Below are positions 1,391 to 55,207 of a DNA stretch of 55,207 nucleotides, one piece after another; within the stretch, counting starts at the first letter, position 1, and every line of letters starts with the position of its first letter. The position numbers and the translations under genes were made by a program. A model generated the notes under the pieces. The model made no database searches and was not told where the DNA came from. It saw nothing but the letters and a program-made list of their open reading frames with translations. The stretch spans positions 1-55,207 of IMG/VR virus record IMGVR_UViG_3300044640_002813. The stretch is one strand, 5' to 3'. The DNA is from a virus.

Positions 1391-2416
1391 ATGGGATTTA
1401 GACACGTTATACCCTATTCAAAATGGCATAAGGTAAATGAAGTTAATATTGCGGCATATAATCAACCTTCTATTCCACTTAAACAGCCTATTTTAACTAA
1501 TAAGGATGGATCATCTATTCCTAATCCTGAAGATAAAAAAGAAGGGGCTCCGGTTGTTAAAACGGAGGATCCAGCTCCTAGCGGAATTCCAACTCCGAAT
1601 AATACTTCATTGCGGGACGATTTAATTACAATCGCAGTAAATAAGACAGTGGTTAAATTTATAGATTTAATGAACGAGAATAAAAAATATTTTCCAGCTG
1701 AATTATATAAAGGAAAAAAAGAATTTTGGGAATTCTTCACTAATGTTCAAAATGGAACCTTAAGTAAGCCTGAATTTGCTAAAATGGTAAAAGACAAGAA
1801 GCTTATATTCTGTCCGCCAGTTGATAGCGATATGAAAGTTTCAATGGACTACTTCACGTGGTTCCCGTCTGATGACACTGGAGAAAACTGGACGCTTGAA
1901 CCCTATACTCAACCTGGATTCAATAAGATCGCTTGGACTTTTAAAGATAGTTATTCATGTCCAGTTCCAACAACAAAGGAAGAGAGAGAAAAAGAACCTA
2001 CTCTAGGTGAAACCTTTCCTCAGTTAGGACTAGGAAATCCAGATTCTTCTACTAAAACCTGTCCATTTGGGCCGGGTGAATGGCTATATGTCAAGCAATT
2101 CTCAGGTTCTGAGGCTCCAGAATATAATGGTCAGAAAAAGGTTTCTGCCAGATCTCTTGCGGCTACCTCATCTGCTACTTCTTCTACACTTACTACTAGC
2201 GCAACTCCAGCAGTTCCAGTTCCTACTGATATCTTGATCCTTGAACAGGACTACGAAACCAAGGTTACTACTGGTAAATCGTATGGATATGTCTTGTTAA
2301 TTAAGAGAAATCAAGCTCAAGGAGGATCAGCATCTTATGGTGGAGTCAGAGGAGGAAGTTACGGAGTAGGAGGATACGGAACCCCAGTTGAAAAGTACAG
2401 TGCAAAGTACTTCTAA
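1391..2416 (+). CDS. Putative capsid-targeted internal protein, 341 aa
   Basis: The N-terminus MGFRHVIPYSKWHKVNE|VN is a short basic/aromatic leader ending V-N-E, like T4 capsid-targeting sequences cut by the prohead protease. Ten of its residues (HVIPYSKW plus context) recur at the extreme C-terminus of the 23553-25502 product, which argues that the peptide is a mobile tag. The body has a Pro-rich linker (residues about 35-70), a globular middle with several Trp and Cys residues (about 75-240), a Ser/Thr/Ala linker and a Gly/Tyr/Ser-rich tail ending AKYF. No enzymatic domain recognised. It starts 23 nt after a late-type element and is followed by another leader-bearing gene. Role inferred as an ejected or internal head protein; actual activity unknown. 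Confidence 0.85.
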   Translation: MGFRHVIPYSKWHKVNEVNIAAYNQPSIPLKQPILTNKDGSSIPNPEDKKEGAPVVKTEDPAPSGIPTPNNTSLRDDLITIAVNKTVVKFIDLMNENKKYFPAELYKGKKEFWEFFTNVQNGTLSKPEFAKMVKDKKLIFCPPVDSDMKVSMDYFTWFPSDDTGENWTLEPYTQPGFNKIAWTFKDSYSCPVPTTKEEREKEPTLGETFPQLGLGNPDSSTKTCPFGPGEWLYVKQFSGSEAPEYNGQKKVSARSLAATSSATSSTLTTSATPAVPVPTDILILEQDYETKVTTGKSYGYVLLIKRNQAQGGSASYGGVRGGSYGVGGYGTPVEKYSAKYF

Positions 2417-2465: not shown

Positions 2466-4097
2466 ATGTCTCACATTAAGAATTTTAAAGACTGGTTCCG
2501 AGTATATGAATCGGCAGGATTTAAGTACAAGTCAGGAATGGCAATTTTCGAAACGACCCCCACTCCAAGCGATGGTTCAATAGAAGCAGATATAAAGGTT
2601 CAATTTGCTGCAGGAGCATATGGAGCAACTCAAGCTGAACAAGATCAGTTAATAGGTCAAATACGAACAAGTTTAACCCCATTAGTAGAGTTCATTAAAA
2701 ATCCTGCACCGGATTATTTTGGACACTTTATAAATATTGAAGTTGAAGCTAGTGCAGACGCAACTGGATTATCAGCGGGAGCACTCCAAAAAGCTGCTGC
2801 TCTAGGGATCACCGCACAAATGCAACCTTCTGAACAAAATACAATTTTATCAAATGCTAGAAAGGATACGTGTATCAAATTAATAAACAAAATATTAGTA
2901 GAAGAACTTGGCGTGACTGAAGAAGAATTAAAAACTAAAATTACTATATCTGGAAAAGCAACAGTTAGTCCTAACCTAAATGATCCAAGTGCAAGATTTG
3001 TAAAAGCTAGATTAAGTAAGGGAGCTCAATATTTGCCGCCGCCGCCGCCTGATAAGATAGAAGAAGACGTACTCAAATGTGGTTACGAAGAAACAAAGGA
3101 GGGAACCGAAGCTAAAAAATATCCATACATTGGATATGAAAAAAAGGTTAAAAGTTCTATGAGGACTGGTCAAAAAATGACTTTGTCATTTAATTCATAC
3201 AACTATCCAGATGCATTCTATATAAAATATGGAGACGTTGAAAAATTTAGCGGATTCATTGGAGCACAAAAAAAGGACGGTAGAGATTTTAATTCGGAGC
3301 TATCTAGCTATGGAGCAGAACTTAAAAAAGCAGTTGATGAGACTATTAAGAGACTCGGAGGAAAGATTGAATCAGATTTACAAACAGATTTTCAAGTAAC
3401 AGGCACACCTACTGAAATGACGAATGCTTTAAAAAAGAAAATAAAGGAGAGTACACTTGATCCTAAATATCATGAATGGCCTCTTATGATTGTAGGATAC
3501 TTAAATGATAGCGGTAATCGATCCGACGGAATTTTGGGGACCACTTGGGTTCAAAATCCTGGAGAAGCTATGGCTTTACCGCCAGATGAATATTTAATAG
3601 GCGCTAAATCACAAAACAGTTTAATGTTAAAAACTCTATTAAAAGAAGGGTTTATTTCTATTCCAGATGAAGGCAATTATAGTGATGCATTTCGGGAAAA
3701 ACTAGAGGGTACTGATTCTAATCCTACTGAAAATGATAAAAAATTAATAGAAGAAGAAGGATCAAAATGGAAAAAAGTGAAATGGACTATTGACAATGCT
3801 TCTAAATTTGCTGGAGGAGGAAGGGGCATAGACGGTTCAACAATAAAGCCTAGAGACATAACAAAGGAAAAAAACTACACGCCGTTAACCAAAGAAATAG
3901 TTTTGGAAATGATTAAGAATGGAAGTTTAGGGGAAGAAGTAAAGAATAGAAGAAACTTAACTCCAAATCCCGCAAATAAAAATGCACTGGATTTTAATTT
4001 TACCTTTGAAAAAGATTTTAGAGATGAATACGTAACAATTGTTGTATTTTCGCCTTTATCTGGAACCGAATTTAATATTAAAGCAACTTGTAAATAA
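2466..4097 (+). CDS. Putative capsid-targeted protein with OmpA-like N-terminal region, 543 aa
   Basis: The leader MSHIKNFKDWFRVYE|SA is shared residue for residue with the 4765 gene, and a second possible cut follows shortly (MAIFE|T). Residues about 30-190 look OmpA-like: a V-x-F start, a run of helix, then an I-x-V-E strand followed by a region with LS, NARK and ARFVKARLS, the order seen in peptidoglycan-associated OmpA domains. This is a weak match made by eye. A PPPPPP linker follows at about residue 193, then roughly 340 residues of unknown fold, with a WPLMIVGYLNDSGN segment. It lies downstream of a late-type element and convergent to a small secreted-protein gene. Likely a virion-internal protein; function otherwise unknown. 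Confidence 0.85.
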   Translation: MSHIKNFKDWFRVYESAGFKYKSGMAIFETTPTPSDGSIEADIKVQFAAGAYGATQAEQDQLIGQIRTSLTPLVEFIKNPAPDYFGHFINIEVEASADATGLSAGALQKAAALGITAQMQPSEQNTILSNARKDTCIKLINKILVEELGVTEEELKTKITISGKATVSPNLNDPSARFVKARLSKGAQYLPPPPPDKIEEDVLKCGYEETKEGTEAKKYPYIGYEKKVKSSMRTGQKMTLSFNSYNYPDAFYIKYGDVEKFSGFIGAQKKDGRDFNSELSSYGAELKKAVDETIKRLGGKIESDLQTDFQVTGTPTEMTNALKKKIKESTLDPKYHEWPLMIVGYLNDSGNRSDGILGTTWVQNPGEAMALPPDEYLIGAKSQNSLMLKTLLKEGFISIPDEGNYSDAFREKLEGTDSNPTENDKKLIEEEGSKWKKVKWTIDNASKFAGGGRGIDGSTIKPRDITKEKNYTPLTKEIVLEMIKNGSLGEEVKNRRNLTPNPANKNALDFNFTFEKDFRDEYVTIVVFSPLSGTEFNIKATCK

Positions 4098-4764: not shown

Positions 4765-6561
4765 ATGTCACACATTAAAAACTTTAAAGACTGGTTCCGA
4801 GTGTATGAATCAGCAGGATTTAAGTATCAGCCTGGCATGGCAATATTTGAAGCGACAATTACCCCAGGGGCGCTTTATGCTGCTGATACTGCTATTGAAA
4901 ATTTGGAAGGGTTGTCAACTAAACTTGATAAAATGACTTCAGAAATGTCAACTGACTGGACCTCACTTATAAATGGATGGAAAAAATTAATTGCAAACAA
5001 AGCACCGGGTGACGGAAAGGCTGAGACAAGTAACGTTTACACAACATGGTTTGAGGGCTCCAAAGCCGGTAATCTCGACAAGGCACAGACAGAGTTCAGT
5101 GCATTCCTAGCAGACACCACCAAATATACAAAACCATCTTTTTCAATTGTGAAGAATGATTTTGTAATTAACAATGCAAAAGGAAGAAAGGTTCCGTTTA
5201 CTAACGGATCACTAACATGGTGGATCAATGCTGACAATTTACTCATGAGGTTTAATGCAACTAATATTTTAAATATGCTTGTATCGTTAAATGACCACTA
5301 TCCGACTGCAGCTTGGGCCAGCGGTAAAACAGTTGAACAGTTGGGATCAATGGCATGGGACAAAATAAAAGATGGAGGAGGCATAGGAAAATGGTATTGG
5401 CCTGATGCCGCAGTTGCCAAAATCGTCGCCCCTGCTATCCAAAGATTCTTATCCTGGAAAGATGCATTAGCGATAAGCTCAGGTTCTAAAGCATTGTCTG
5501 CTGATAGCTTAGGTGGAGGAATCAAGGCAGGAGATACGGTTTCAGACCCAAAAGGGATGGAAAAGGAGATTCTTGTTCAAAAATTTGGTTTTTATACTAT
5601 TGCTTCAGTGGAACAAGGAGCCGGAAATGAATACACCAAATTTGAGACAACCTCAGTTCAGGTTCCAGTCGGAGGAGGAAAAGGGGCAGTTGCAGTTAAA
5701 GACGATAAGCAATCTTTACTGGGATCATCTGGTTTATTTGCTCAAGGTTCTAAAACTCCAGTTCCAGCCAAAGCCGCTGGACAGCTTGAAGCCTTACAAA
5801 AGATATTAAGTCAGTATTCTAACATTACTTCTATTAAAGTTCAAGGATCCGCCTCATGGGAATGGACTAACGGTAACACAAGAGACGACGCTCAAAATCT
5901 GGCATTAGCTAAAATTAGAGCTCAATGGTTTATTGATCAACTTAATGTCGGAACAAACAAAGTTGCAACCATGTGGATGCCTACTGAAGTAGATAAAGTG
6001 GTAAATGGAGTAAAGCAGGTAGTAGGTGAAGGGGCCGTAGTTCAACCTACTAATGATGTAAAAACTGCTCCTGATTGGAGGGTAACCAACTTCTTTATAA
6101 CTGGAGATAAAGTAACAGAAAATACACTACCTGAAAAATGGATCACAGTGACTGAAACTGGAGATATTACATTAAAATATGATAAGGTTACAATCACCGA
6201 GCATATTTTAACGGTTTCTTTTACATCTCCAGGATTGATAACGTCTAAAGGATGGGGACAGGAGAAAGGTAAAAAAGATATAAAATCAGAGCTTAAACAG
6301 AGTACTAAATGGGATGACTTAAAGGCGGGACAGGAGATAGTTATAAACGATAAGTCAGACCCTCCAAAACCAGTCGGAGGTGGAGTCGATGGTAAACAGA
6401 TTTTCGTAGTAGGCGAAGGTACTGAAAAAAATACCTTAAAGGTTAAATTGGTAACTACAAAGGACGGTCAGAAATCAGAAAGAGAGATTGACAACGTAAT
6501 CAAAGATAGATATCTAAGAGAAGTAAAACCTAAACCTGTCGAAGGAGAAGATAACTTATAA
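4765..6561 (+). CDS. Putative capsid-targeted protein with OmpA-like domain, 598 aa
   Basis: It begins with the same leader as the 2466 product, MSHIKNFKDWFRVYE|SA, followed by a second potential cut MAIFE|AT. After the leader the two proteins diverge. Residues about 325-395 look like an OmpA/Pal-type peptidoglycan-associating fold: a helix (LEALQKILSQYSNITSI), a V-x-G-S-A strand, and an LALAKIRAQWFIDQL helix matching the usual LAxxRA pattern. The C-terminal third is beta-rich with Gly/Lys-rich turns and ends in an acidic tail. The downstream hairpin at 6577-6608 closes the unit. A peptidoglycan- or envelope-interacting internal protein is plausible; that role is inference. Confidence 0.87.
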   Translation: MSHIKNFKDWFRVYESAGFKYQPGMAIFEATITPGALYAADTAIENLEGLSTKLDKMTSEMSTDWTSLINGWKKLIANKAPGDGKAETSNVYTTWFEGSKAGNLDKAQTEFSAFLADTTKYTKPSFSIVKNDFVINNAKGRKVPFTNGSLTWWINADNLLMRFNATNILNMLVSLNDHYPTAAWASGKTVEQLGSMAWDKIKDGGGIGKWYWPDAAVAKIVAPAIQRFLSWKDALAISSGSKALSADSLGGGIKAGDTVSDPKGMEKEILVQKFGFYTIASVEQGAGNEYTKFETTSVQVPVGGGKGAVAVKDDKQSLLGSSGLFAQGSKTPVPAKAAGQLEALQKILSQYSNITSIKVQGSASWEWTNGNTRDDAQNLALAKIRAQWFIDQLNVGTNKVATMWMPTEVDKVVNGVKQVVGEGAVVQPTNDVKTAPDWRVTNFFITGDKVTENTLPEKWITVTETGDITLKYDKVTITEHILTVSFTSPGLITSKGWGQEKGKKDIKSELKQSTKWDDLKAGQEIVINDKSDPPKPVGGGVDGKQIFVVGEGTEKNTLKVKLVTTKDGQKSEREIDNVIKDRYLREVKPKPVEGEDNL

Positions 6562-15935: not shown

Positions 15936-16316
15936 TTACCAGTTTTTTCTCCATCTCCAAGATTCGTTAGCTGGCTCTTCACCTTCAGCTGGCTCTTCGC
16001 CTTCTTCACCTTCAGCTGGCTCTTCGCCTTCTTCACCTTCAGCTGGCTCTTCTTCAGCTCCACCACCTTCTAATTCTTCAACTCTAGCTGTCAAATCATC
16101 AAGCATAGCTTTTAAATCTTCTAGTGTAACTTCTTCTCCTTCTCCTTCAGCTCCTTCTTCGCCTTCTTCTGGCATTTCATCAGTTAAAGCAGCTCCACCT
16201 TCTTCATCCTCTGGATTAGCTCCATAGTATCCGAAGTCTTCGCCTTCTGCATATTCTCCTGACATTGATTCATTCAATCTTGCTCGCATGAATCCTGAAA
16301 AATTTTTTACTTTCAT
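15936..16316 (-). CDS. Very acidic putative prohead core protein with cut sites at both ends, 126 aa
   Basis: The leader MKVKNFSGFMRARLNE|SM and the C-terminus PANE|SWRWRKNW both carry an N-E|S site and both flanking tags are basic/aromatic. The roughly 100 residues between them are extremely acidic, with Glu-Gly-Glu repeats (EEPAEGEEGEEPAEGEE, encoded by a direct repeat at about 15970-16050). This resembles T4 prohead core proteins such as gp67, which the prohead protease reduces to acidic internal peptides. It is a monocistronic unit between a late-type element and a strong terminator, as suits a highly expressed protein. Homology by sequence is not claimed; the analogy is from architecture. 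Confidence 0.85.
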   Translation of the reverse strand: MKVKNFSGFMRARLNESMSGEYAEGEDFGYYGANPEDEEGGAALTDEMPEEGEEGAEGEGEEVTLEDLKAMLDDLTARVEELEGGGAEEEPAEGEEGEEPAEGEEGEEPAEGEEPANESWRWRKNW

Positions 16317-17067: not shown

Positions 17068-19206
17068 TTAAGCGTATTCTTCTGAAAAATTAGGTCTAAT
17101 TCCCTGAGCTGCAGATATTCCCCAGGTAGGATCAGTTCCCCATCCTCCATTTGCTCTAACGAAATTATAGATCGCATCATCTATAGTTTCAAATCCGTTA
17201 GGATCTATTCCTTTCTGTTTAAGTTGAGGAACTAACATTGCAACTGCAATCTTAGCAGCTATCACTGGATTATTAGCAAGATCGGGATTAGAGACAAGAT
17301 CAGCTCCGACCACCTTACCATACTGAGCATATAGGCTCTTAAAGGTGATGCCATTAAATCCTCTACCTCTATATTTCCAACCGTCTCCTTTTTGAGTATT
17401 ACCGGTATTTGGCCATAAATAAGGAGTAGCCTCCTTTCCATAAACCGCGTCCCAGAATTCCTCTTCATTATTTTTAAGAGCGGTCAGTTCAGCGTCATCA
17501 TATTTTGCAACTCTGGCTCCAAAAATAGATCGGATTCGGCTATTAGCTGTTGTTGCATAGCTTATTTCTCTCTGAGGTATAAATCCACTCTCTTTTCCAA
17601 TAACACAAAGAAGTCCAATTAAAGACTTGGTATTAGTGATTCCCGCCTTTTTAGCTACTTCTTCTATGATCCTGATATTTTTAGCCTGCTCACCCGTATA
17701 TGTGTGCTTGATTCGACTAGGTCCAGTTATTTCTATTTGGATATCACCTTGATCGACCTTTCCAGAATCCGCTATTTCTTCATCAGGGAGAGAAAATAAT
17801 CTTAACATTATTTTACCTATTTCAGTGTCTGTAATGTCCTTTTCCTCTTTTTGAATAACCTGAATAATTCTATCATCTTTTTTTATAAATTGGCCTGTTG
17901 GTTTTTTATCTTTATCGTATACATCATAAATATTTTTATCCATAAATTTACGCTTAACTATAAGCATTCTTCTATTTTCTTTATCATATATTTTAATAAA
18001 ATTTCTTCTCTTTTTAGAAAAACTGGTTCCTGAATAGAGTTCCCTTTCAGTATCGTCGTCTAGAGCTCCAGTCTCAGGCAGACCTTTATCTTTTTGAAAT
18101 TTCATTAAAGTTGCTTTAGTTTCTCCATAAAAGAGACCATCAATTCCATATACTGGAAGCTCGTATCCTTTATCAACTAGGGCCTGTTGCATTCGTTTAA
18201 CGTCTTCTGATTCTGAACCATATTTTAAAGTTCCTCCTTCTGAAGATGATGAAGAAATATCTCTACCTGCCCCTGATAGATATGGAAGAGGATCAACATG
18301 GTCCCCATTGAGAGATTTTCTGATTTCAAAGTGTAGATGTGCCCCTCTAGAATTTCCAGCCCCTCCTTCTACTCCTTGATCTCCGCCTGACTTTCCTATG
18401 ATCTGACCCTTTTTGACGCTATCACCTGCCTGGACATCCATTTGAGAAAGATGAGCGTATAAAGAATAGAGGGTTTCACCGCCTACATCATGTCGAATTA
18501 ATATCACGTTTCCATATCCATACTTATCTGACATATCGGCACGTTCAACGGTTCCGTCTGCAATTGATACAACACCTGCCCCAGTTGGAATACCTAGATC
18601 TATTCCTTTATGCATTCTTCCCCACCTAGGTCCAAATTTTGAAGTTAAAGTGGCTTCAGATGCTAGTGGATAATTAAATTTTCCTTCTCCAGAATCTGAT
18701 TCTTCAGGTTCAGTTTTAGGTGCTCCTAATATATTTCCAGATTCATCAACATAGTTTTTTAAATCTTTATTCTTAAGTCCAATATGTACATGTTCATACC
18801 ACGTTCTGCCGTCTGATGGCCGACCGATATGACCGATGAGTTCACCTTTCTTTAGTTCATATCCACTTTTAATTGAAGGTTCTAAACTTCCAAGATGAGT
18901 GTAGAACACCTTTTCATTGAATTCTGATGCCGTTACCGTGACATGCCAACCATATACTTTCTGATTAGATGAGTTAGATAATTTTACTGATTTAACTTTA
19001 CCGTCAAATATCGAATATACTGGAGTTCCTGCTTTTGCCATGACATCCCATGCATTATCAGATTCCCAATTACCAAATGCCCTTTTACCATGTGCATCAG
19101 GTCCGCCACCCCATGTGAATTTTTTGTTTCCAACCAAGTGGCTAGATGAGGTTGCAGATTCGTTAATTGCTTTATGATATTTCCAAGGATTTATGAAATC
19201 GTGCAT
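17068..19206 (-). CDS. Four-domain peptidoglycan hydrolase (M23-M23-PG_binding-GH19) with capsid-targeting-like leader
   Basis: 712 residues. The leader MHDFINPWKYHKAINE|SA ends I-N-E|S. The first M23-like domain is at about 25-150 (H104 in YTHL, H139 and H141 in HVHIGL; the first zinc His is replaced by Asp50 in SDNAWD, so activity is doubtful). The second M23 domain, at about 180-305, has a complete set: H199 and D203 in HKGIDLG, H252 in YAHL, H290 and H292 in HLHFEI. A PG_binding_1 domain follows at about 328-392. The C-terminal 510-712 resembles GH19/phage endolysin, with probable catalytic E539 (GKESGF) and KYRGRGFNGIT. It should cleave both peptide cross-links and glycan strands. No signal peptide. 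Late-type element upstream. Location inside the capsid is inferred from the leader; a tail-associated or lysis role remains possible. Confidence 0.95.
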   Translation of the reverse strand: MHDFINPWKYHKAINESATSSSHLVGNKKFTWGGGPDAHGKRAFGNWESDNAWDVMAKAGTPVYSIFDGKVKSVKLSNSSNQKVYGWHVTVTASEFNEKVFYTHLGSLEPSIKSGYELKKGELIGHIGRPSDGRTWYEHVHIGLKNKDLKNYVDESGNILGAPKTEPEESDSGEGKFNYPLASEATLTSKFGPRWGRMHKGIDLGIPTGAGVVSIADGTVERADMSDKYGYGNVILIRHDVGGETLYSLYAHLSQMDVQAGDSVKKGQIIGKSGGDQGVEGGAGNSRGAHLHFEIRKSLNGDHVDPLPYLSGAGRDISSSSSEGGTLKYGSESEDVKRMQQALVDKGYELPVYGIDGLFYGETKATLMKFQKDKGLPETGALDDDTERELYSGTSFSKKRRNFIKIYDKENRRMLIVKRKFMDKNIYDVYDKDKKPTGQFIKKDDRIIQVIQKEEKDITDTEIGKIMLRLFSLPDEEIADSGKVDQGDIQIEITGPSRIKHTYTGEQAKNIRIIEEVAKKAGITNTKSLIGLLCVIGKESGFIPQREISYATTANSRIRSIFGARVAKYDDAELTALKNNEEEFWDAVYGKEATPYLWPNTGNTQKGDGWKYRGRGFNGITFKSLYAQYGKVVGADLVSNPDLANNPVIAAKIAVAMLVPQLKQKGIDPNGFETIDDAIYNFVRANGGWGTDPTWGISAAQGIRPNFSEEYA

Positions 19207-19218
19207 CTATTTGATTAA

Positions 19219-19236
19219 TTTTTATTATTTATTTAG
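19219..19236 (-). promoter_or_regulatory. Late-type promoter element for the 19206 gene
   Basis: The minus-strand reading is CTAAATAAATAATAAAAA, with TAAATA 25 nt before the ATG. It overlaps the stop codon of the Nudix gene. Confidence 0.6.
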
Positions 19237-19712
19237 GAAAGGCGGTCTAGAATTATCATTTGAGATCTGTGTATCATTCCATAAGCATCTCGGATTGGAA
19301 CAAATCCTGCCCAGTCTACTTCTTCTAATTGTAATTGAGATTTAGGAACTTTAAGATCTATAAGATCTATTTCTGAAAGATCTTGAATTAGCATATTAAA
19401 ATAAATCAGCTGGCCTGTCAATTTACCTGAATCATCATACTTATATGACTCCATAGGACTGAGATCTAATTGATTTGAAATCTGATCAGGTCTAATAATG
19501 ATTCCAGTTTCCTCCCTCATTTCTCTGATTGCGGCTTCAAGAGGATCTTCACCCTCTTCTATCTTTCCTTTAGGGATGCTTAAATTGTTTTTATGCCAGC
19601 TTGAATTAGTAGAGTGGACCAATAGGATCAAGTCAAGATACTTAATGGCGATCCCAGCGGCTACTCTAGGCTTATTCATAGATTCATTAAAGGATTTAAA
19701 ATTTAAGATCAT
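19233..19712 (-). CDS. Nudix hydrolase with capsid-targeting-like leader, 159 aa
   Basis: A complete Nudix box lies at residues 49-71: G49, E55, then REMREETGI at 63-71, matching G-x5-E-x7-REUXEEXGU. Such enzymes hydrolyse a nucleoside diphosphate linked to another group (NDP-sugars, ADP-ribose, NAD, dinucleoside polyphosphates, capped RNA); the substrate cannot be read from the sequence. The N-terminus MILNFKSFNE|SM precedes the fold and has the leader pattern F-N-E|S, implying packaging in the head and injection. It overlaps the bS21 gene by 17 bp and follows the ATP-grasp-like gene, so the three are one transcript. Family certain; packaging inferred. Confidence 0.95.
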   Translation of the reverse strand: MILNFKSFNESMNKPRVAAGIAIKYLDLILLVHSTNSSWHKNNLSIPKGKIEEGEDPLEAAIREMREETGIIIRPDQISNQLDLSPMESYKYDDSGKLTGQLIYFNMLIQDLSEIDLIDLKVPKSQLQLEEVDWAGFVPIRDAYGMIHRSQMIILDRLS

Positions 19713-20795: not shown

Positions 20796-21893
20796 ATGGG
20801 TAAAACTTATAATTCTTGGAAATCAGTTAACGAATGGAATATTTTTAATAATCCAAAAAGAGGAAAACAGGTATTTACTTCCCCGTCTGGTCAAAAACAA
20901 AGAATGGCTTTTAAAATTCAAGATGATTTTAATTTCATTATCAAGCTTTTCAGATTTTCAGACGTTATAGATCAAAAAGGAAATATAACTTCATTAGGAA
21001 TGGACTCGTTAATTAAATTCTTTAATGGACAATCGGACATGACTAACGTTTATGGCCCGTTTGATAGTTCTTTTTTCCAAAAAAAGTTTTTACTCTATAC
21101 AGTATTAGAAGACTCAGCCGACAAAGATAAAATTCAATTTACTATCATTAGTAGGAATATTTATCCAAAATTAGGCCCTCAGAATATTATGGTAAATGCT
21201 ATGAATTTAGCAAATTTAATAAGCGCAAATCAGCCTGAGGACGCTGAAATAATTCAAAATATACAGATTAATCGAGAAAAAGTAAAGGATAAAGATATTG
21301 AAGAGCCTGAAAAATTGAAAGACGATGTCAAGAAGGAAGAGGCAGGCGGAACCGATGCTACTGAAAAGGAATTAGGAAACAAATTTAGATACACCATGAG
21401 ATCAAATGGCAAACTTTATTTAATGGAGTTTGCAGCAGGAGGAGCGATAGACGCTCAAGTAATAGGAGAAGGACATCCGAATGGAGCAATATCATGGGAG
21501 GGATCTAGATTGATGTGGTATACTGATGCTGATTCAGTTGATAATATATCAGTCTATTCTAAATGGATTGATGAGGATATTCCCCTGTACACGGATACTG
21601 AAATAAATAATCCTGCGGATAAAGAATTTTTGTCTAAAATATTTACAGATGATGCATTTAGAAAAAAGGTAATCGGTGAATATGAAAAGGAATTTGGAGA
21701 ATCTGAAGTTAATTCTACAACTATAAAAAAGATGCTATTCTTTAAAGATGGTACTCCTATATTTCCAGAAGAAATAAAGCAACCAGTTCAATCCTCAACT
21801 ATTGATTCTAATACTGAAGATAATGTAGTTGAAGAACCTAAAGAAGACGAGGACTATGAATGGGTTAGAAAAGAAGAAACAAAATATTTCTAA
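20796..21893 (+). CDS. Putative capsid-targeted internal protein, 365 aa
   Basis: The leader MGKTYNSWKSVNE|WN ends V-N-E. The body has an N-terminal alpha/beta region (about residues 20-130), a charged linker (KDDVKKEEAGGTDATEKE), a beta-rich middle containing KLYLMEFAAGGAIDAQVIGE and an acidic tail ending EEDYEWVRKEETKYF-like residues. Its last residues KYF resemble the AKYF end of the 1391 product, but this is too short to weigh. No family recognised. It is 6 bp upstream of the 21900 gene, and both are leader-bearing, so they are probably co-packaged. Function unknown. Confidence 0.85.
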   Translation: MGKTYNSWKSVNEWNIFNNPKRGKQVFTSPSGQKQRMAFKIQDDFNFIIKLFRFSDVIDQKGNITSLGMDSLIKFFNGQSDMTNVYGPFDSSFFQKKFLLYTVLEDSADKDKIQFTIISRNIYPKLGPQNIMVNAMNLANLISANQPEDAEIIQNIQINREKVKDKDIEEPEKLKDDVKKEEAGGTDATEKELGNKFRYTMRSNGKLYLMEFAAGGAIDAQVIGEGHPNGAISWEGSRLMWYTDADSVDNISVYSKWIDEDIPLYTDTEINNPADKEFLSKIFTDDAFRKKVIGEYEKEFGESEVNSTTIKKMLFFKDGTPIFPEEIKQPVQSSTIDSNTEDNVVEEPKEDEDYEWVRKEETKYF

Positions 21894-23552: not shown

Positions 23553-25502
23553 TCACCATTTAGAGTAGGGAATCACGTGTTTAAACTTGGTAGATTCAGA
23601 TATATCTTTTTTAACAGTTGTTTCCTCTTCAGAATCTTTTAATTCAGGTGGAGTATCAATAGATAATTTCATTTCTTCATAATAATCAGGATTATCCGCG
23701 TGTACATTTGAATACCATTCTGCAACTTCAGGAGGTAATTTATCTTTTTCTCCACTTGTATAGTATACAACATCAACTATTCTAGGAAGATTAAATTTTT
23801 TGGCATAATAATCCAAATTATTTTGTAAAACTGGAACCGCATCATTATTTTCAAACGCATCTATATAGGGTACGCTGTATGATGCGTCTGGATTTTCTTT
23901 TAATTCTCGATCCATAATCTCTTGCATCTTCTGTTGAACTGCAGCATTTCCAAATAGTTCATATTCTCCTTCACTAAACTTTTTAGTTTGTCCGAAATGT
24001 CCAATCAATTTAAGAACCTGTTTCCCAATGAACAGGGGTACCATTTTACCAATTGTAATAGTTCCGAAAATCTTTCCAAACTTGTTTGCCTGACCGTATG
24101 TGTTACTAACTCGATTCATAAGACCTCCCACCTCTCCATAAAAGGAGTTTGCATTCATTTTAACACGACTCATCTCTGAAGTCAGATTCGTACCATATCT
24201 AGCAGAGATAAAATCAGTTTCTTTTAGAAATTCAGCGTCCAATTTAACCGCAGTTCCACTTTTAGTATTTACAATTAAATCGGTTCCTTTTGCTTCAATT
24301 CTTGCTCCATCTGAAGCGGCAGCCATAAAGAAATCATCTAGTTTTTGAACTTTGGCAGCATCTAATAATTGAGGAATGTTAGAAGCAAATTGATTCATTT
24401 TAGCAGAATAGGTTCCAAACATGTCAGCTATTCCTTCAAAAAAGGATCTTAAGGGTTTACCTACAAACGGGATCCATCCAACCACTGTTCCTAGAAAATC
24501 TCCAAAGAACTTAGCTATTAAATCTCCTATTGTTCCTAAAACCCCCTTAGTGCTTTTTCCAATATAGTCCAGGGCTTTCCAACTTTCAGGTCTAGCTGCT
24601 GCTGCTAAATTTATCGCATCTTTAGACATTTTAGCTGATCCACCTGCAACACCTCCGGCTGCTCCCATGTAACGGGTACTGATTTGTAAAACCTCAGCTC
24701 CTGCTTTGGATCCTTTAAACCAGCCTTTGAAAAGATCCCCAGCAAATGGAAGAGCTGCACATATAAAATTGATTAGTGCAAGTAACCATTTACCTCGAAT
24801 CATATAAATTATTCCATTGATGATATCCGCTATTAATCCTACTGGCTCAAATGCCGATCCAAAAAGTCCAACTAAATCTAGAACAAAGTGAAGAATTCCA
24901 ATTGGGGATCCTCCTTCAGTCAATGCACTTAGTAAGCCTTTCAGCATTCCTAATATTCCACCACCTCCCCAGTCCCCTTGAGAAGGGGAAGCTGCTCCGC
25001 TTACTGCAGCTAGAACGTCGTCTCCAGCTTCAGAAGAAGCAGGTGTAAATTCTCCAGATGCGGAAGAAGTTGGAGTCTCATCAAAAAATGACATGACATC
25101 ATCAGCAGTTTTTCCAATATCAAACGGGAGAGAAATATCGCTCTCGTTCACTTTCTTGAATCCAAATTCTCGAATCACTTTACTATATGATTCATTTAGT
25201 TTAGTGATCTCAGATTGAGACATGTGATTGAGGGACTCACGAACGATAGAATTAACTCCTCCCATCAGGTTTTTATAATAGTCAGTGCTTGTTACGATTC
25301 CTCGTTTAAGAATCATATCCAATTCAAGTTGGAATCTTAGATCTTCCGGAACCGACTCTTCAATCTTATTTAGGAAGTCGCATTCCTTTTTAATGGTTTC
25401 TAAACTAAGGGCCTTTGATAATTTATCCGCGTGCCCAACTAGTGCCTCATTAATAACAGAAGATAAATGGTTCAACTCAGAATAAGAGGAAACATGATTC
25501 AT
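23553..25502 (-). CDS. Putative capsid-targeted protein tagged at both ends, 649 aa
   Basis: The N-terminus has a long leader ending NHLSSVINE|AL (residues about 10-21). The C-terminus is DISE|STKFKHVIPYSKW, whose last ten residues nearly repeat the N-terminal tag of the 1391 product (FRHVIPYSKW) and which carries its own I-S-E|S site. Residues about 180-280 are hydrophobic, with GILGMLKGLLSAL, IGILHFVLDLVGLFGSAF and ADIINGIIYMIRGKWLLALI then ALPFAGD. That pattern (Dxxngiiy, Gxxxx-Al, lPxxGD) is familiar from pre-toxin regions of polymorphic toxins. The C-terminal half is mixed and unassigned. Late-type element upstream. A packaged, membrane-interacting effector is the inference. Confidence 0.88.
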   Translation of the reverse strand: MNHVSSYSELNHLSSVINEALVGHADKLSKALSLETIKKECDFLNKIEESVPEDLRFQLELDMILKRGIVTSTDYYKNLMGGVNSIVRESLNHMSQSEITKLNESYSKVIREFGFKKVNESDISLPFDIGKTADDVMSFFDETPTSSASGEFTPASSEAGDDVLAAVSGAASPSQGDWGGGGILGMLKGLLSALTEGGSPIGILHFVLDLVGLFGSAFEPVGLIADIINGIIYMIRGKWLLALINFICAALPFAGDLFKGWFKGSKAGAEVLQISTRYMGAAGGVAGGSAKMSKDAINLAAAARPESWKALDYIGKSTKGVLGTIGDLIAKFFGDFLGTVVGWIPFVGKPLRSFFEGIADMFGTYSAKMNQFASNIPQLLDAAKVQKLDDFFMAAASDGARIEAKGTDLIVNTKSGTAVKLDAEFLKETDFISARYGTNLTSEMSRVKMNANSFYGEVGGLMNRVSNTYGQANKFGKIFGTITIGKMVPLFIGKQVLKLIGHFGQTKKFSEGEYELFGNAAVQQKMQEIMDRELKENPDASYSVPYIDAFENNDAVPVLQNNLDYYAKKFNLPRIVDVVYYTSGEKDKLPPEVAEWYSNVHADNPDYYEEMKLSIDTPPELKDSEEETTVKKDISESTKFKHVIPYSKW

Positions 25503-25577: not shown

Positions 25578-26576
25578 TCAACTAAAAAGTCTCTTTAGCT
25601 CCTGCCTCTGTCTTCGAATCAGATCAGGAGAATAGGCAGCAATCAATCTTTTAATGTCATTCTGACTGGAAACATAGAGAAGATCTCTTAAAACCGGATC
25701 CTGTATTATTTCTCGATTAGGATCGTATTCGATTTGAATTGCAGCAAGACAATTAGAAGCAAGAGTCTCATACAATCGATAGGTTTTAACGTTATCTAGA
25801 TGCTCTTCATCTCCAGTTATTAATGAAACTTTAACCAGATCTAAGGTCTTCATTAATTCTCCATGCTCTAGTTTTTTCATAAACTCAGCCTGAACTCGAT
25901 CTGACTTATATCCAATTAGTAGATTTTGAGTATCTGTTGGAAAATATTTTCTGATTTGATTTTCTCTAAACGATCCTCTCTTATCTCCATAATATACAAG
26001 GTCCCATTTTTTCTCTACATCTTCTTTAATTAGGTCAAGATCTACACTCTCAAAACGGTGTTTAAAGATGTAAGTGAACCAGTCGACGTGAAGATGATTT
26101 TGAGGCTGCCAACCTAGATATTTAGATACATCTTTTCCTGAAAAAAGATAGGTGGCAGTTTGGATTATGGAATCCCATTTATCTACAGATTGAGTGCATA
26201 ACTGAAACCTATCAGATATGATCTTAGCATAATTGATTGGAGGTATTCTTGGATCATTAACTAACATATAGATCTTTCCTCGGTAATTAGCAAGATCGTT
26301 GCATATTTTTTCGCAATGTTCTCCCATTACTCCTCCAAAAAAATTGGCGGTGCTTAATTGAAGAATCACGGCTCCGTATTCTGAAAAATCAGTATCAGTA
26401 TAATTGATATAAAAATCCAGGTCTTTGGTATTTCTATTTTTGTATCCGACAACATCAACTTGAGCCCCTTTCTCTTCCATCATTTTTTTAATGAACATGG
26501 CTTCTAACCCTCTATGATTCTTATCATTGTAGGTCAAGTTAGCAAATACTGAAGTGATCGCTATTCTCTGTTTCAT
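25578..26576 (-). CDS. T4-type DNA beta-glucosyltransferase
   Basis: 332 residues, against about 351 for T4 Bgt. Matches recalled to T4 Bgt run in order: a strand ending STANFFGG (residues 75-82; T4 SSINFFGG), KIYMLVNDPRIP at 101-112 (T4 KIYYLFTDIRLP, with the catalytic Asp equivalent at D108), DLVYYGDKRGSFRENQ at 192-207 (T4 DVIYGGSFRSGQRES), and SLITGDEEHLDN then YRLYETLASN with E270 (T4 ALIIGD and LRVWETMASD). The T4 enzyme transfers glucose from UDP-glucose to 5-hydroxymethylcytosine in DNA, protecting it from restriction. No hydroxymethylase is in the window, so the acceptor base and sugar are unknown. It overlaps the 26573 gene by 4 bp (ATGA). Confidence 0.93.
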   Translation of the reverse strand: MKQRIAITSVFANLTYNDKNHRGLEAMFIKKMMEEKGAQVDVVGYKNRNTKDLDFYINYTDTDFSEYGAVILQLSTANFFGGVMGEHCEKICNDLANYRGKIYMLVNDPRIPPINYAKIISDRFQLCTQSVDKWDSIIQTATYLFSGKDVSKYLGWQPQNHLHVDWFTYIFKHRFESVDLDLIKEDVEKKWDLVYYGDKRGSFRENQIRKYFPTDTQNLLIGYKSDRVQAEFMKKLEHGELMKTLDLVKVSLITGDEEHLDNVKTYRLYETLASNCLAAIQIEYDPNREIIQDPVLRDLLYVSSQNDIKRLIAAYSPDLIRRQRQELKRLFS

Positions 26577-31877: not shown

Positions 31878-33836
31878 TTAATTTATTACTTTTACTTCTA
31901 AAGGTCCCATTAATAAATCTTCTAATCTTCTCAGTCTCATTGATACCTCTGAAAGATCTACATAATTTCCTCCAACTGATGAATTGGTCATTGCGGTTTG
32001 AGATCCTTCATTAGTTGTTTGATTTGCAACATTATTGGATACCAAGGTCTCAGTGACTTGATTATTGACTGGATTTACTTCATTGTTTGTTTCATTCTTT
32101 AATTCTTCATTTGAATCCTGTGAAGCCGAGTTAGTATTAGTCGAAGTATTATTGAATGTATTAATTGGAGCAACCTTTTTATCTAAACCAACTGGATTTT
32201 TATTCACTTCTAAATTATCTGATTCTTTTAAAATCTCAGTTGATTTATCATTTTTATCAGTTGATACATTATTAGATTCAGTGGACATTGAGCTATTTAG
32301 TACTGTTTCTTTACCAAAGTATGAATTAATCATTTGTAGATCTTCTGCATTTCCAAAATCATTTAATGATATTGCATTAGCATCAGCATCTGTCAGAGAC
32401 TTAGTTACTGTAGTAGTATTTTTATTAAGCTCTTCTACTGTGTTAGTATACGATTCTAGATTATTAGACACTTCTTCTAATTTATCTGTAGTGTTGTTTA
32501 TTTCTGAAGTATTAGATTCAGAATTAGATGAATTTATATTATTATTATTATTATTTTGAGTCGAAGAAATTGGTGTTGAAATTACAGGCTCTCTCGATTC
32601 TTTCTCATTTATAACAGTAGTGTCCTCAACAATTTTATTACTCACATTCGATACTATGTCTTCGGTTACTTGATCTGAATTGATCGCTGATTTCTCCTCA
32701 GTACTTGAACGAGCCAGTTGCAAAATCTGTTCTAGATTGGATTCAGATTCAGCAACCGTCATGGTTTTTTTGCCAAAAATTTCATCTACTATATTAGATG
32801 ATATGTTCTCAGTAGTCTCGTTCAATATAGGAGCAGCATCTTCTATAATTTCCGCTGCTGGATTAACAGGGTTTATGACGGTAGATCCCCCTGAGGATGG
32901 TTGAGAGACATTTGTTACTTCTGAGGTATTTATTTCCTTACTATCATCTATATTATTTTGAGTATTATTTTGATTAATAACTGTCTCATTGACGGTAGAA
33001 GTATTATAAGTAATATTGTTAATTGTCCCGGATTGAGATCCAGAATCTTCAGATTTTATGTCACTTGGAGAATTTATGGTAGTCTCTGAAGCAGATATGT
33101 CGCTTGGTAAAACTTGAGATTCAACCGCAGGGCCCTTGGTTTCTATAGTTTCAGAGCTTTTGGTTATTTCTTCGGACTCAGTTTCTGTTGGATTTATCGG
33201 ACTCTTTCCTTTCTCTGAATCAGGTTTAGTTTCAAAGAAATCAGTGCTTAGAGTTTTAACCTCTTTTTCAGCCTGGTTTAGATTTTCAGTTTCATTTATA
33301 GGTGCTCCTCCCCCTTTTTTAGGAAATATTGCGCCTTTAAACTCTTTGCCAATCTGTTTAAGCTGATCTTTAAAACTTAATTCATTAAAATTTTTATAGA
33401 TATCGCTTATCTGTGTGAGTTTGACGATGTCTGGATAAATTTGCGTATAAAAAGGGGTCGATTCCTTTGACTCTCCGTGAAACAGATACGGTATGTTTAA
33501 ATCAAGCTGCATATCAGCTTTCCAGTATTTAAAGTTTCCCATTTCCTCTGGGCTTACCCCGGGCCCAGCGTTCAAAACATTATAGCTATTATCGATAGCT
33601 ACAAATGCATCTCTTAATTTCTTATTAGATAGGTTATCTCTTCCCATATCAGTGACATTGGTACGGGTACCAACTCTGATTTCCATTAATTGACCTTTTT
33701 GAAAAAATAATTGAACATCCCCTCTAGTAAGAAAATCAAAGACTACATCTTTCATTATACGCTCGGATGTCCAAACAAAACCTAAAGCTTTTAAATCTTC
33801 AATATGGGAGCTAGTAAAATCCTTGATTTCTGCCAT
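31878..33836 (-). CDS. Probable tail/baseplate-associated protein with long Asn/Ser/Thr-rich region, 652 aa
   Basis: Residues about 1-175 look folded: VFDFLTRGDVQLFFQKGQLM, then a region with Trp and aromatic residues up to LFHGESKESTPFYTQIYPD. Residues about 180-625 are low complexity, rich in Asn, Ser, Thr, Glu and Val, including NNNNNINSSNSESN, with little hydrophobic content and probably disordered. The C-terminal 25 residues (VSMRLRRLEDLL) could form a short coiled coil. It lies directly downstream of the gp26-like and small chaperone-like genes, where T4-like phages have hub genes. The disordered middle could be a tether. No family recognised. Confidence 0.85.
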   Translation of the reverse strand: MAEIKDFTSSHIEDLKALGFVWTSERIMKDVVFDFLTRGDVQLFFQKGQLMEIRVGTRTNVTDMGRDNLSNKKLRDAFVAIDNSYNVLNAGPGVSPEEMGNFKYWKADMQLDLNIPYLFHGESKESTPFYTQIYPDIVKLTQISDIYKNFNELSFKDQLKQIGKEFKGAIFPKKGGGAPINETENLNQAEKEVKTLSTDFFETKPDSEKGKSPINPTETESEEITKSSETIETKGPAVESQVLPSDISASETTINSPSDIKSEDSGSQSGTINNITYNTSTVNETVINQNNTQNNIDDSKEINTSEVTNVSQPSSGGSTVINPVNPAAEIIEDAAPILNETTENISSNIVDEIFGKKTMTVAESESNLEQILQLARSSTEEKSAINSDQVTEDIVSNVSNKIVEDTTVINEKESREPVISTPISSTQNNNNNNINSSNSESNTSEINNTTDKLEEVSNNLESYTNTVEELNKNTTTVTKSLTDADANAISLNDFGNAEDLQMINSYFGKETVLNSSMSTESNNVSTDKNDKSTEILKESDNLEVNKNPVGLDKKVAPINTFNNTSTNTNSASQDSNEELKNETNNEVNPVNNQVTETLVSNNVANQTTNEGSQTAMTNSSVGGNYVDLSEVSMRLRRLEDLLMGPLEVKVIN

Positions 33837-35130: not shown

Positions 35131-35592
35131 TTAGGAATTGACGAATTGAGAAAAACTTAGTGCCCGGTATGATTCAAACACTCTTTCCATAGTGTCTACA
35201 TATATTTCCTTCTTTTCTAGTGTCTTAGGGTCCCGGATAAACACCTTTATCGTCTTATCTCTTCTGTTTACTTTGATAGAATCTAATTTTCCAACTACGG
35301 TTCTTCCATTTTCAGTTCCGATCGTAGAATTTACAACGATTCCTCTTATTCTATCACCCGGTTTAAAGTGATACTTAAGCATATTGATATTCAGTTCAAA
35401 CTGGCTCACTCCGGGGTCAGATTTTCTAGACATATCACTTAAAGGTACGTTTTTGATGGAAACGCCAGGGGTAAATTGACTTCGGCCAACTACAAAGTTG
35501 AAATCTCCTTTTTCTCCATAAAAAGGAAGACCTCTCATCCCATCTTGTCGCTGGAACGAAGTAAAAGTTCTATTTTCGTTTAATCCGTTCAT
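35131..35592 (-). CDS. Virion-associated hypothetical protein with possible C-terminal tag, 153 aa
   Basis: A small protein with a beta-barrel-like middle (about residues 70-130: PGDRIRGIVVNSTIG, TVVGKLDSIKVNRRDKTIKV). It ends MERVFE|SYRALSFSQFVNS, where V-F-E|S is followed by a 13-residue aromatic tail, like the C-terminal tags of the 649- and 126-residue proteins. Its ATG and the stop of the 35592 gene share a base. In the morphogenesis block, a head, neck or baseplate component is likely. No family recognised. Confidence 0.83.
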   Translation of the reverse strand: MNGLNENRTFTSFQRQDGMRGLPFYGEKGDFNFVVGRSQFTPGVSIKNVPLSDMSRKSDPGVSQFELNINMLKYHFKPGDRIRGIVVNSTIGTENGRTVVGKLDSIKVNRRDKTIKVFIRDPKTLEKKEIYVDTMERVFESYRALSFSQFVNS

Positions 35593-53000: not shown

Positions 53001-53721
53001 AGGAAATGTAATAGATAATTATTTCGGTATTGATGTTGAGACTCCATCAACCGATGAGGGTGGAAATATAATACGAAGTAATTTCATAGAGAATTATATA
53101 GGGGACAGCTTTATTTATAATATTACAGTAGATACCTCAGGCGGAGGATATTACAATAATGTTATCGGATGGGCCTGCACCAATAATATAATAGCTGACG
53201 GATTTAATTATAACAGACTAGGAGACATATTTCAATTCAACATTTTAAGCACCAGCTTTGCGTCAAACAATATAGGATTTTTCTTCAATGTCAATCTAAT
53301 AAGCGATAACTTTTCATCAAATGTGATAGGAGATTTATCCTGGTTCAATGACATAGGTTCAGGCTTTTCTCATAATAAAGCAGGAAATCTATTTGGAGAT
53401 TTCTTCGGAGGAGGCAATACTATAGGGGCAGATGCGATAGACAACATATTTTCTGAGCATGCGGTAGCTAATACTATTGGGGATAATTTTTTTAGTAATT
53501 CTCTTTCTGCGTATTTTGGTGGTAATCTAGTAGGTAATGATTTTCAATACAACACCTCACAATATCCAGTAACAGGATACGATTTTGTTAACCCTTCTCC
53601 TGCGCCTACTCATGTTTACGGAGGGTATACATGTACTATCAGTGGAGATCAATCTGGAAATTTAAAATTAACTTATATAGACGGAACTGGAACCATCGTA
53701 GTAGTGGATCCTGACGAATAA
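49981..53721 (+). CDS. Giant right-handed beta-helix fibre protein, 1246 aa
   Basis: The anchor [20 protein letters not shown] and WEWNGSIW is shared with neighbouring fibre genes. Next is a module with DVTYSQLVSSIGSGSLIEGS and YYLITDF, DYDGNPITSGN and RITERIDEWNNRTDYDHRNI (about residues 40-170). From about residue 280 come dozens of short repeats of the type N-x-I-G-x-x-F-x-x-N (for example DDLFQNNKIGRSFYSNSIG), the pattern of a parallel beta-helix with Asn ladders. A Ser/Gly-rich insert with GGSSYSNSSNVATTGVSGSG and SVGDTITITGG lies near 820-880. A long beta-helix shaft or tailspike is likely. No catalytic site recognised. Confidence 0.92.
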   Translation: MPLNFPTPSFIGEIYTGPNGNQWEWNGSIWKSLTPAIAGPIDVTYSQLVSSIGSGSLIEGSYYLITDFKTCYDQPDFDYDGNPITSGNYKDSAPVEPIIVFAIGTDRISEDAYQPDYPNDRIKYDWTYSTTEVTGGAAYGRITERIDEWNNRTDYDHRNILFKRYRLYVSTSENSLRINGQIDLLFDGTVNGTDTQFTDLSVGDVIFIDSINPGYYEISNIADNVTMTVIGDVISPVSGSYFYRTIEITRGGEYFSYKRTNVKTDDYREYTTFGNALGSSYAINNRIGDYANDYLNLGETFMLSNNAFLIGPDDSNRLGNFCTNNTFGSGLVFNTFGSLCSNNALSGSKVESNSIANSFVGNIINTNLYLNRIGNVFQSNLLLAEDGSQLESNQIDDRFEGNLIYMSFVENSIGNNFKGNVIGDYSNINQGFYFQNNEVDDLFQNNKIGRSFYSNSIGTSFKSCTVYGDFYDNGISANFTSNEIYGGFYENTIDLGFNKNQVYSDFYANTVGKFFDTNRVGPGFFRNQIGSGFLSNAPYNYEYFGLDNLNTVLDRSYDVAGGAIPSESVILGLPLVMKVTSVGPERYFRVQFLQWTPSGGGGGFSYVRNEIDSSTGADIGSQVLFTKTNSGSEIDIIIPGVLEITRGSSDGIYNAATEGGWSGSSPADTQWNSVYVVYAFGLDFGFNQIGDDFSDNLIGPEFGALGKNSNGNLIGDCFQKNTIFGTFLNNSIGNLMTENTIDEGFINNRIKNYCAGNTIGPGWENNDIGDFFGNANLPNIIGGNFTNNKIGNFFGCGSTKDYGGNKIGTVTTLNYNSVQGIPSSISLTSGGSSYSNSSNVATTGVSGSGLTVDIVTDGLGLITSITINTPGTYYSVGDTITITGGGNDATLNIDSIGSFNTGDVLDNGLGDSCEVIVDDPGSSLMTVNVIIGEFANGETIDNGTGTLAIFDSISTEPDKNASFLDNVIGDYFINNQIGFRFADNQIGNYFGNSGDTGISNIILDDFRGNVIDNYFGIDVETPSTDEGGNIIRSNFIENYIGDSFIYNITVDTSGGGYYNNVIGWACTNNIIADGFNYNRLGDIFQFNILSTSFASNNIGFFFNVNLISDNFSSNVIGDLSWFNDIGSGFSHNKAGNLFGDFFGGGNTIGADAIDNIFSEHAVANTIGDNFFSNSLSAYFGGNLVGNDFQYNTSQYPVTGYDFVNPSPAPTHVYGGYTCTISGDQSGNLKLTYIDGTGTIVVVDPDE

Positions 53722-53733
53722 AATCAATTATAA

Positions 53734-54240
53734 ATGGCACAACGTAAAAATATTCATGGATCTGGATCCTTTCTTAGGGATCTATCTATAATTCAAAAAA
53801 TAGAGGAGATAGTGAACGCTAGTTTTAATCAGTTTAACAAGACTGATCGGTCCCTTTTGAGACTGCAAAAAGAGATGTTTTCACTAGAAAAAAAGGATGA
53901 TGAGGCCAGCTTAAACAGAAAAAAAGAGCTGGAGCAGATAATAACAAAAGAGAGAGATAAGAAGGAAATAGAGAACCGGATGATTGAGAGTGGTGCCCTA
54001 GCTGAATCAGTGATTGAGGCTTTAAAAAAAGAGGATGGAGGTGCAGATATATCAATCGATATAGAGGCAGGCGTAAATGCAGGTCGTGGAAAGGAGCCAA
54101 TAGGGGAACTTCCTCCTGCTCGAGGACTGAAGGAAGCTGTACAGTCATTGATAGATAGAAGATCTTTGCATAGAGATATAAAACAAGAGTTCGGTAAACG
54201 AAATCTAAATTATTTTAATCTTAAAGAGATTGCAAAATAA
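53734..54240 (+). CDS. Coiled-coil protein between fibre genes, 168 aa
   Basis: Starts MAQRKNIHGSGSFLRDLSII. Residues about 25-95 form a strong charged coiled coil (RLQKEMFSLEKKDDEASLNR and onward); then a Gly/Pro-rich linker (ADISIDIEAGVNAGRGKEP) and a short helical end (KEAVQSLIDRRSLHRDIK). No family recognised. It sits 12 bp after the beta-helix gene and ends inside the next promoter element, so it may be a fibre connector or chaperone. Confidence 0.82.
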   Translation: MAQRKNIHGSGSFLRDLSIIQKIEEIVNASFNQFNKTDRSLLRLQKEMFSLEKKDDEASLNRKKELEQIITKERDKKEIENRMIESGALAESVIEALKKEDGGADISIDIEAGVNAGRGKEPIGELPPARGLKEAVQSLIDRRSLHRDIKQEFGKRNLNYFNLKEIAK

Positions 54241-54251
54241 ATAAAAATAAA
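54234..54251 (+). promoter_or_regulatory. Late-type promoter element for the 54260 gene
   Basis: AAAATAAATAAAAATAAA; TAAATA begins at 54238, 22 nt before the ATG, and the upstream gene's TAA stop lies within it. Confidence 0.58.
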
Positions 54252-54259
54252 TTGATCTG

Positions 54260-55207
54260 ATGCCAATTAACTTTCCAACACCCTCCTTTATAGGTGAATT
54301 ATATACCAGTCCAAATGGAGATATTTGGGAATGGAATGGATATGCCTGGTCAAAAGTAGGGGCTCCTTTTAATCAGGGACCTACTGGCTCAACTGGAGCA
54401 TCTGGAAAAACCGGACCTACTGGTTTTAAAGGGGCAACCGGATCCCAGGGACCTCAGGGAATCCAAGGAACACAAGGACCTCAGGGAATCCAAGGACCAC
54501 AAGGAGTTCAAGGACCTCAGGGTCAAACTGGACCTCAGGGCCAAACCGGACCTCAAGGAATCAAGGGATCAACTGGATGGACTGGACTGAACGGCACACC
54601 TGGACCGTCAGGTCCGACTGGGCCCGAAGGTCCAACTGGACCTTTAGGTGGACCCACTGGACCAACAGGAGGAGGAAGCACTGGAGCAACTGGCTGGACT
54701 GGTCCTACTGGTTGGACGGGTCAGACTGGACCAACTGGAGATTCAGGGCCTACTGGAGATTTTGGACCAACTGGAGATACTGGACCTGCTGGAGATACTG
54801 GTCCAACTGGAGATTCAGGGCCTACTGGAGATGCCGGACCATTTGGACCTCAAGGGCCAACTGGGCCAACTGGAATACTAGGAGCGACCGGGTCAATCGG
54901 GTCGACAGGTTCAACTGGACCAACAGGGCCGATAGATTTTAGATATAGAACAACTGGAGTAACTAGCACTCCGTATACTGCAACTTTTTCATTTGATTAT
55001 TATGGAGTTACGTATACCGGAGGAGTATGTAGTATATCCTTGCCAACCGCTGGGGTATTAGATGAAGGGAGAACTATTACAGTCGCCGACGAAGATGGTA
55101 ACATCAGCCTAGGAGGCAGAGGAATCCTGGTTTCCGGAACTGGGGGACAACTGATTGACGGAAGCAGTAGCGTTCTTATGCAGATAGATTACATGTCGTT
55201 AACCTTT
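54260..55207 (+). CDS. Collagen-like fibre protein, N-terminal part (runs off the window)
   Basis: It begins [20 protein letters not shown] then WEWNGYAW, the third copy of the fibre anchor. Residues about 38-230 are collagen-like: first [10 protein letters not shown]-type units, then [12 protein letters not shown] units, then a GSTGPTGP end. The visible tail is beta-rich ([20 protein letters not shown]). No stop is reached by the last base, so the gene is partial (316 codons seen). The mixture of unit types differs from the other two collagen fibres, indicating separate expansion histories. Start chosen by alignment with the 48002 and 49981 starts. Confidence 0.92.

Follow-up and report, generated by a model that had tools for sequence, protein, structure and literature searches.

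The 55,207-bp record analysed here, called the window, is a virus fragment of a large T4-like phage. Its terminase matches Pfam Terminase_6N, and the nearest terminases (31–36%) belong to metagenomic giant phages, Sphingomonas phage PAU and the Tenacibaculum phages PTm1/PTm5. The gene of a 649-aa protein sits amid baseplate and terminase genes; it and the gene of a 153-aa protein share a cluster with the terminase gene and a gene for a gp6-like baseplate protein (phrog_219). Neither a gp21-type protease nor a Gp23 capsid gene was found within the 55,207 bp of this fragment. The window also encodes a T4-type beta-glucosyltransferase (PF09198), which suggests glucosylated modified DNA. A 121-aa tryptophan-rich ORF resembles an out-of-frame reading of the tail-fibre collagen-like repeats and is probably not a gene. 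The coordinates of all features are collected in Table 1.

Table 1. Features of the window and of related contigs (window positions unless a contig is named; a slash marks a candidate cleavage position).
Feature	Coordinates	Strand	Remarks
649-aa protein, leader-like peptides at both ends	23553..25502	-	
C-terminal tag STKFKHVIPYSKW, residues 637-649	23556..23594	-	sequence and conservation in relatives
Candidate gp21-type cleavage site I-S-E/S, residues 634-636	23595..23603	-	putative cleavage
N-terminal leader MNHVSSYSELNHLSSVINE/, residues 1-19, then A	25446..25502	-	sequence
E120 (VNE/S)	25143..25145	-	nearly invariant; at the edge of a linker with poor conservation; further candidate cleavage site
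E196 (LTE/GGS)	24915..24917	-	just ahead of hydrophobic segment; further candidate cleavage site
Conserved hydrophobic segment, residues ~197-280, GGSxIGIxHFILDIVGLVGD...INGxIYMIRGKW	24660-24914	-	
153-aa protein, C-terminal tag VFE/SYRALSFSQFVNS, short N-terminal MNGLNE/N	35131..35592	-	second C-tagged family
341-aa protein, N-terminal leader MGFRHVIPYSKWHKVNE/V	1391..2416	+	sequence
126-aa acidic protein, N-leader MKVKNFSGFMRARLNE/S, C-terminal NE/SWRWRKNW	15936..16316	-	
NUDIX-domain protein, N-leader MILNFKSFNE/S	19233..19712	-	leader-bearing enzyme example
M23 peptidase / PG-binding / GH19 protein, N-leader MHDFINPWKYHKAINE/S	17068..19206	-	
Two proteins with leader MSHIKNFKDWFRVYE/SAGFKY	2466-4097, 4765-6561	+	leader identical in both
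T4-type beta-glucosyltransferase	25578-26576	-	
121-aa tryptophan-rich ORF	54577-54942	+	
Aromatic C-terminal motif without E-S	2390-2416, 21870-21893; G033 18236-19345, G010 32243-33241	+ (window)	
Protease-scaffold fusion	G019 53018-54856, G032 55647-57485; L152-L209		in L152-L209, ORFs upstream of capsid gene
Proteins ending FNIPYKIWDL / FNIPYTSW	L193 1529-2359 / L168 3841-5517	-	
Run of small ORFs	G010 99600-109000	-	

The 649-aa protein ends in KKDISE/STKFKHVIPYSKW. The original prediction held that this end is nearly identical to the leader of the product of 1391–2416 and that the N-terminus of the protein is leader-like as well. Both statements were confirmed: the C-terminal tag is identical to the leader MGFRHVIPYSKWHKVNE at 9 of 10 residues, and the protein starts with MNHVSSYSELNHLSSVINE/A. 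At the level of sequence, protease-type sites lie near both termini, INE/A at residue 19 and ISE/S at residue 636. Searched with a degenerate DNA pattern encoding the peptide, the record gave only two matches; the reversed control gave 0. The two 30-nt copies have 25 bases in common and differ in their flanks; five codons differ, four of them synonymously and one by an R/K exchange. These mostly synonymous differences mean that the peptide is conserved at the protein level and is not a fresh DNA copy. Among the pairs of 10-mers from window proteins that agree in at least 9 of 10 residues, this is the only one joining unrelated proteins. The remaining pairs come from collagen-like repeats or other common tail-fibre sequence, or from the products of 2466–4097 and 4765–6561, which are likely paralogues.

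Using the terminase, we gathered 69 related contigs, which contain 14 homologues of the 649-aa protein; an IMG/VR profile search raised the number of distinct C-termini of the family to about 40. All full-length homologues among the first 14 have a leader-like C-terminus, most of them after E-S or E-N (FKHIIPFYKFQ, MRYITPYSQFIS, MKYIKPFII, FKHLRKFKL, LKHIRDISDFL, VLSFKDFKKV, ILSFSKFIND, KKIMNFSDFNR). E[SNGA] followed by the core was present in 36 of 40 distinct C-termini, compared with 0.55 (maximum 4) in shuffled tails and 0.46 (maximum 3) in internal windows; the core pattern was devised after viewing the first 14 homologues, which biases these exact counts towards it. The distance of E[SN] from the end is less exposed to such post-hoc bias: it lies 9–19 residues from the end in 34 of 38 distinct full-length relatives, compared with a shuffled mean of 5.5 (maximum 14). 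Two relatives are without E[SNGAT] at the expected distance. The linker from the last conserved domain to the tag is variable in both length and sequence. A search for relatives lacking the tag had been proposed as a check; when it was run, the orthologues were seen to keep the tag, which is absent only from distant proteins sharing just the hydrophobic segment (L265–L280). The named phages PTm1, PAU, MaF61 and T4 yielded no relatives, nor did bacterial genomes.

The basic-aromatic tags that follow E-S or E-N fall into two kinds that grade into each other, KHI-x-P-Y/F and SFSxF. The intermediate tags (KHITPFSKFIR, RYIIPYSRF, RHIISFSDFK, KRILSYADF, KRILSYADFLKK) make the KHVxPY and SFSxF kinds one series, tied to the FxxF leader class. 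Aromatic residues stand three apart in the window tag (Y-S-K-W) and in many relatives (FSDF, YSRF and others); the KHLRKFKL and KYIKPFII tags are without such a pair. On capsid-gene contigs, three proteins that form no family end in FNIPYxxW, and the C-termini of the L193 and L168 proteins are near VIPYSKW.

In one clade, half of the 649-aa family, the N-terminus opens with M[KR][HY][VIL]x[PAS]Y, the same KHV-x-P-Y peptide, and the N-terminal core M[KR][HY][VI]x[PAS]Y was present in 25 of 53 relatives. The types of peptide at the two ends co-vary: 19 proteins have it at both ends, 16 at neither, 4 at the C-terminus only and 0 at the N-terminus only. The Fisher p of 1.5e-7 ignores phylogeny and overstates the strength of this co-variation, since related sequences are not independent. 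One relative with an SFS-type C-terminus (L254) also has an SFS-like N-terminus, HSFSEYL.

The 153-aa protein represents a second family with a tag of this class. Its end, [YF]E/S..ALSFSQFINS or close to it, was found in 14 of 14 related genomes, and in a wider survey of 80 loci the glutamate site followed by ALSFSQFINS was kept in nearly all. Position 6 (M-x-x-[LI]-[ND]-E) holds a glutamate in every sequence of the 14-member alignment; this start recalls T4 Alt with its six-residue MELITE/. Among the 95 families tested, which are those with at least three members, only the 649-aa and 153-aa families have the C-terminal pattern in most members; the control at internal offsets gave 0–2 families (mean 0.18), compared with 2 at the true end. 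Over all proteins, a looser C-terminal pattern gave 42 matches against 26 in shuffled sequences (maximum 47), without clear enrichment, and a stricter one gave 24 against 5.2 (maximum 12). The C-terminal signal lies in the stricter pattern and at the family level, not in the looser pattern over all proteins. The identified terminase and gp6-like baseplate wedge families are not among the C-tagged ones. The terminase C-terminus, FNPETRDQIKKINAKFFKS, has a superficial likeness to the tag and was dropped, its glutamate not being kept. The C-terminal NE/SWRWRKNW of the 126-aa protein is common only to one relative, G025. Another short aromatic C-terminal motif, without a preceding E-S, ends several leader-bearing proteins (VEKYSAKYF, EETKYF, VDIYQQRTF, VDKYRATTF).

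At the N-terminus, the pattern aromatic-xx-aromatic-[ILVM]-x-E[ASGNT] was seen 28 times within the first 25 residues, with 1.2 expected. These leaders are borne by unlike proteins, including the NUDIX-domain and M23/GH19 proteins. The presence of a gp21-type protease and a gp23-type capsid protein in the lineage is supported by the relatives: both (PF03420 and PF07068) were found in G019 and G032, the longest of them. In these two and in nearly all other capsid contigs examined, the protease and a scaffold-like region form a single fusion protein. In this region, a 14-residue unit, Y[STAQ][EDN]Y[LIV]AE[KNS]LNxSI, is repeated in tandem about eleven times. A gp21-like site occurs in many of the repeats, and at the level of pattern the repeats resemble YQEFIAE of the T4 leader. 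The idea that the leaders copy the scaffold repeat proved unsupported, as a matrix of 301 repeats placed 6 N-terminal sites in the top 50, with 5 expected. In the G010 region of small minus-strand ORFs, RPxTKGxR-like stretches recur and short matches to a Gp23 capsid gene are scattered among the ORFs.

The ISE/S of the window fits the T4 gp21 rule ([LIV]-x-E/). The original prediction that a glutamate is placed to release the C-terminal peptide thus agrees with the window itself; across the 649-aa family cutting at this end is not supported, since P3 is hydrophobic in only 15 of 36 relatives, near the background of 33%. In the 153-aa family, P3 is hydrophobic in 52 of 52 scored sites. The 649-aa protein may have further cleavage sites at E120 and E196, which lie in or beside poorly conserved stretches and are at least 90% conserved.

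No function was obtained for the 649-aa and 153-aa proteins from Pfam, PHROGs, a PDB profile search, AlphaFold or Foldseek. The mean pLDDT of the AlphaFold models was 54 and 49, respectively; the low-confidence model of the 649-aa protein is helical, with long helices and the hydrophobic segment. This segment is the part common to distant 842-aa and 405-aa proteins. The T4 portal family matches other genes. Comparison of the 649-aa protein with T4 Alt by hhalign (E 0.25, probability 0.2%) showed no homology by sequence.

On balance, we lean towards the reading that STKFKHVIPYSKW is a capsid-core targeting propeptide, kin to the N-terminal leaders of the group and carried on a disordered acidic linker. 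As the tag is kept in nearly all relatives, it probably functions as an address at either terminus. While the head is being assembled, the basic-aromatic KHI-x-P-Y-x-x-W/F would dock the 649-aa protein on the scaffold core, alongside the N-terminal leader or in its stead. The gp21-type protease would cut after I-S-E636 and I-N-E19, perhaps also after E120 and E196; cleavage would release the protein from its attachment to the core, and the peptide would exit the head. The peptides, their conservation and the co-variation of the two ends are observed; docking, capsid location and cleavage at either end we infer.

Given that the gene neighbours baseplate and terminase genes and that both tagged families are without an assigned function, a tail-assembly or a permanent-docking role is possible. 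A tag that binds the scaffold or shell permanently and stays uncut, in the manner of encapsulin cargo, with E-S belonging to the binding element or the linker, would explain why P3 in the 649-aa family is not consistently hydrophobic; encapsulin cargo-loading peptides, too, have about 10 residues and are mostly C-terminal (PMC7355545). However, E[SN] stands at a set distance in 34 of 38 relatives, the site of the 153-aa family obeys the T4 rule wherever it was scored, and the leaders found at the N-terminus in these phages finish with E/S as well. We regard a permanently docked peptide as unlikely.

The 649-aa and 153-aa proteins might instead be tail components, for example of the tape measure or baseplate, with a tag that serves tail assembly and has nothing to do with the head. 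Their clustering with the gp6-like baseplate gene and the terminase fits this, as do the long helices and hydrophobic segment of the 649-aa protein and the match of 1 of 14 members to the tape-measure phrog_167 (3e-10); the Foldseek tape-measure matches of the 649-aa protein were at E 0.02 or worse. A tail signal is quite unlikely in our view, as the peptide is an N-terminal leader elsewhere (FRHVIPYSKW, 1391–2416), the leader class also occurs on the NUDIX protein, the terminase and baseplate wedge families that were identified are without the tag, and no match was found to T4 gp29 (hhalign E 0.086, probability 0.7%) or gp25. Chance or a recent 30-bp DNA duplication would account for there being only two copies in the window; this is refuted by the survey of relatives, in which the tag is conserved, and is at odds with the synonymous codon differences and the unlike flanks, so that we give it almost no credence.

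The targeting-propeptide reading places the tag next to the capsid targeting sequence of T4. In the T4 IPIII leader (MKTYQEFIAE/A), targeting depends on the aromatic pair Y4 and F7, and processing on residues 8 and 10 (PMC9026906). The tag is similar in its length of about 10–15 residues, in its aromatics three apart and in its place beside a candidate gp21-type glutamate cut site. It differs in that the T4 sequence is N-terminal only, whereas here the motif is also C-terminal, downstream of the candidate site, and the C-terminal tag and the N-leader of the 649-aa protein are separate peptides. Encapsulin cargo-loading peptides, which are usually C-terminal and sometimes N-terminal (PMC7355545), are a working analogy for an address peptide of about 10 residues possible at either end; they belong to an unrelated system, bind the shell directly and, as far as known, are not removed by a protease. 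The capsid targeting signal of phage P1 DarB is a terminal peptide sufficient to direct a reporter into the phage head (PMC9024508); unlike the tag of the 649-aa protein, it is N-terminal only.

C-terminal propeptides are described for the prohead proteases SPN3US gp245 and phiKZ gp175, and such processing is expected for T4 gp21 (PMC7411985, PMC9026906). The gp245 propeptide is proposed to target the enzyme to the core. As would be the case for the 649-aa protein, a C-terminal peptide is removed by the prohead protease; however, the gp245 propeptide has 64 residues and sits on the protease itself (PMC7411985), and the cited passages report no motif that it has in common with N-leaders. In T4 Alt, gp21 removes 6 N-terminal and 63 C-terminal residues (ITE-6, LTE-619), and the authors of that work raised targeting, tethering and control as possible roles of the propeptides (PMC5694885). 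We aligned the Alt C-propeptide (residues 620–682, NC_000866.4) from eight divergent Tevenvirinae. An FxxF[VL] element inside a variable stretch is largely kept: DFASFVSS in T4, and SFASFASS, SFDSFVKS, SFASFVEK, DFGNFVKS, SFEGFVKS, GFNQFLVE and SASTFLTT in the others. The N-propeptide MELITE is without an aromatic pair. Alt resembles the 649-aa protein, whose cutting is predicted, in having propeptides at both termini, and its FxxF[VL] resembles the tags. Unlike the tag, the Alt C-propeptide is 63 residues long with other conserved parts, and the sequences are not homologous.

Tentatively, and from sequence comparison, T4-type head-targeting peptides might be independent of the terminus (N, C or both), and Alt itself might be addressed by its C-terminal FxxF[VL]. 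If this is true, T4-type heads could load cargo via either terminus. The role of C-terminal propeptides bears on T4 Alt, gp21 and the proteases of giant phages. A conserved C-propeptide that repeats the N-leader motif makes the targeting role of such propeptides in head proteins directly testable, and the short FxxF[VL] element of T4 Alt is pointed to as a testable candidate in a laboratory phage. The original prediction had considered removal from both ends unfamiliar from T4. Trimming at both ends is not new, T4 Alt being itself doubly trimmed, and C-terminal propeptides are known for SPN3US gp245 and phiKZ gp175; the novelty is that the same leader motif occurs at the two termini of one protein.
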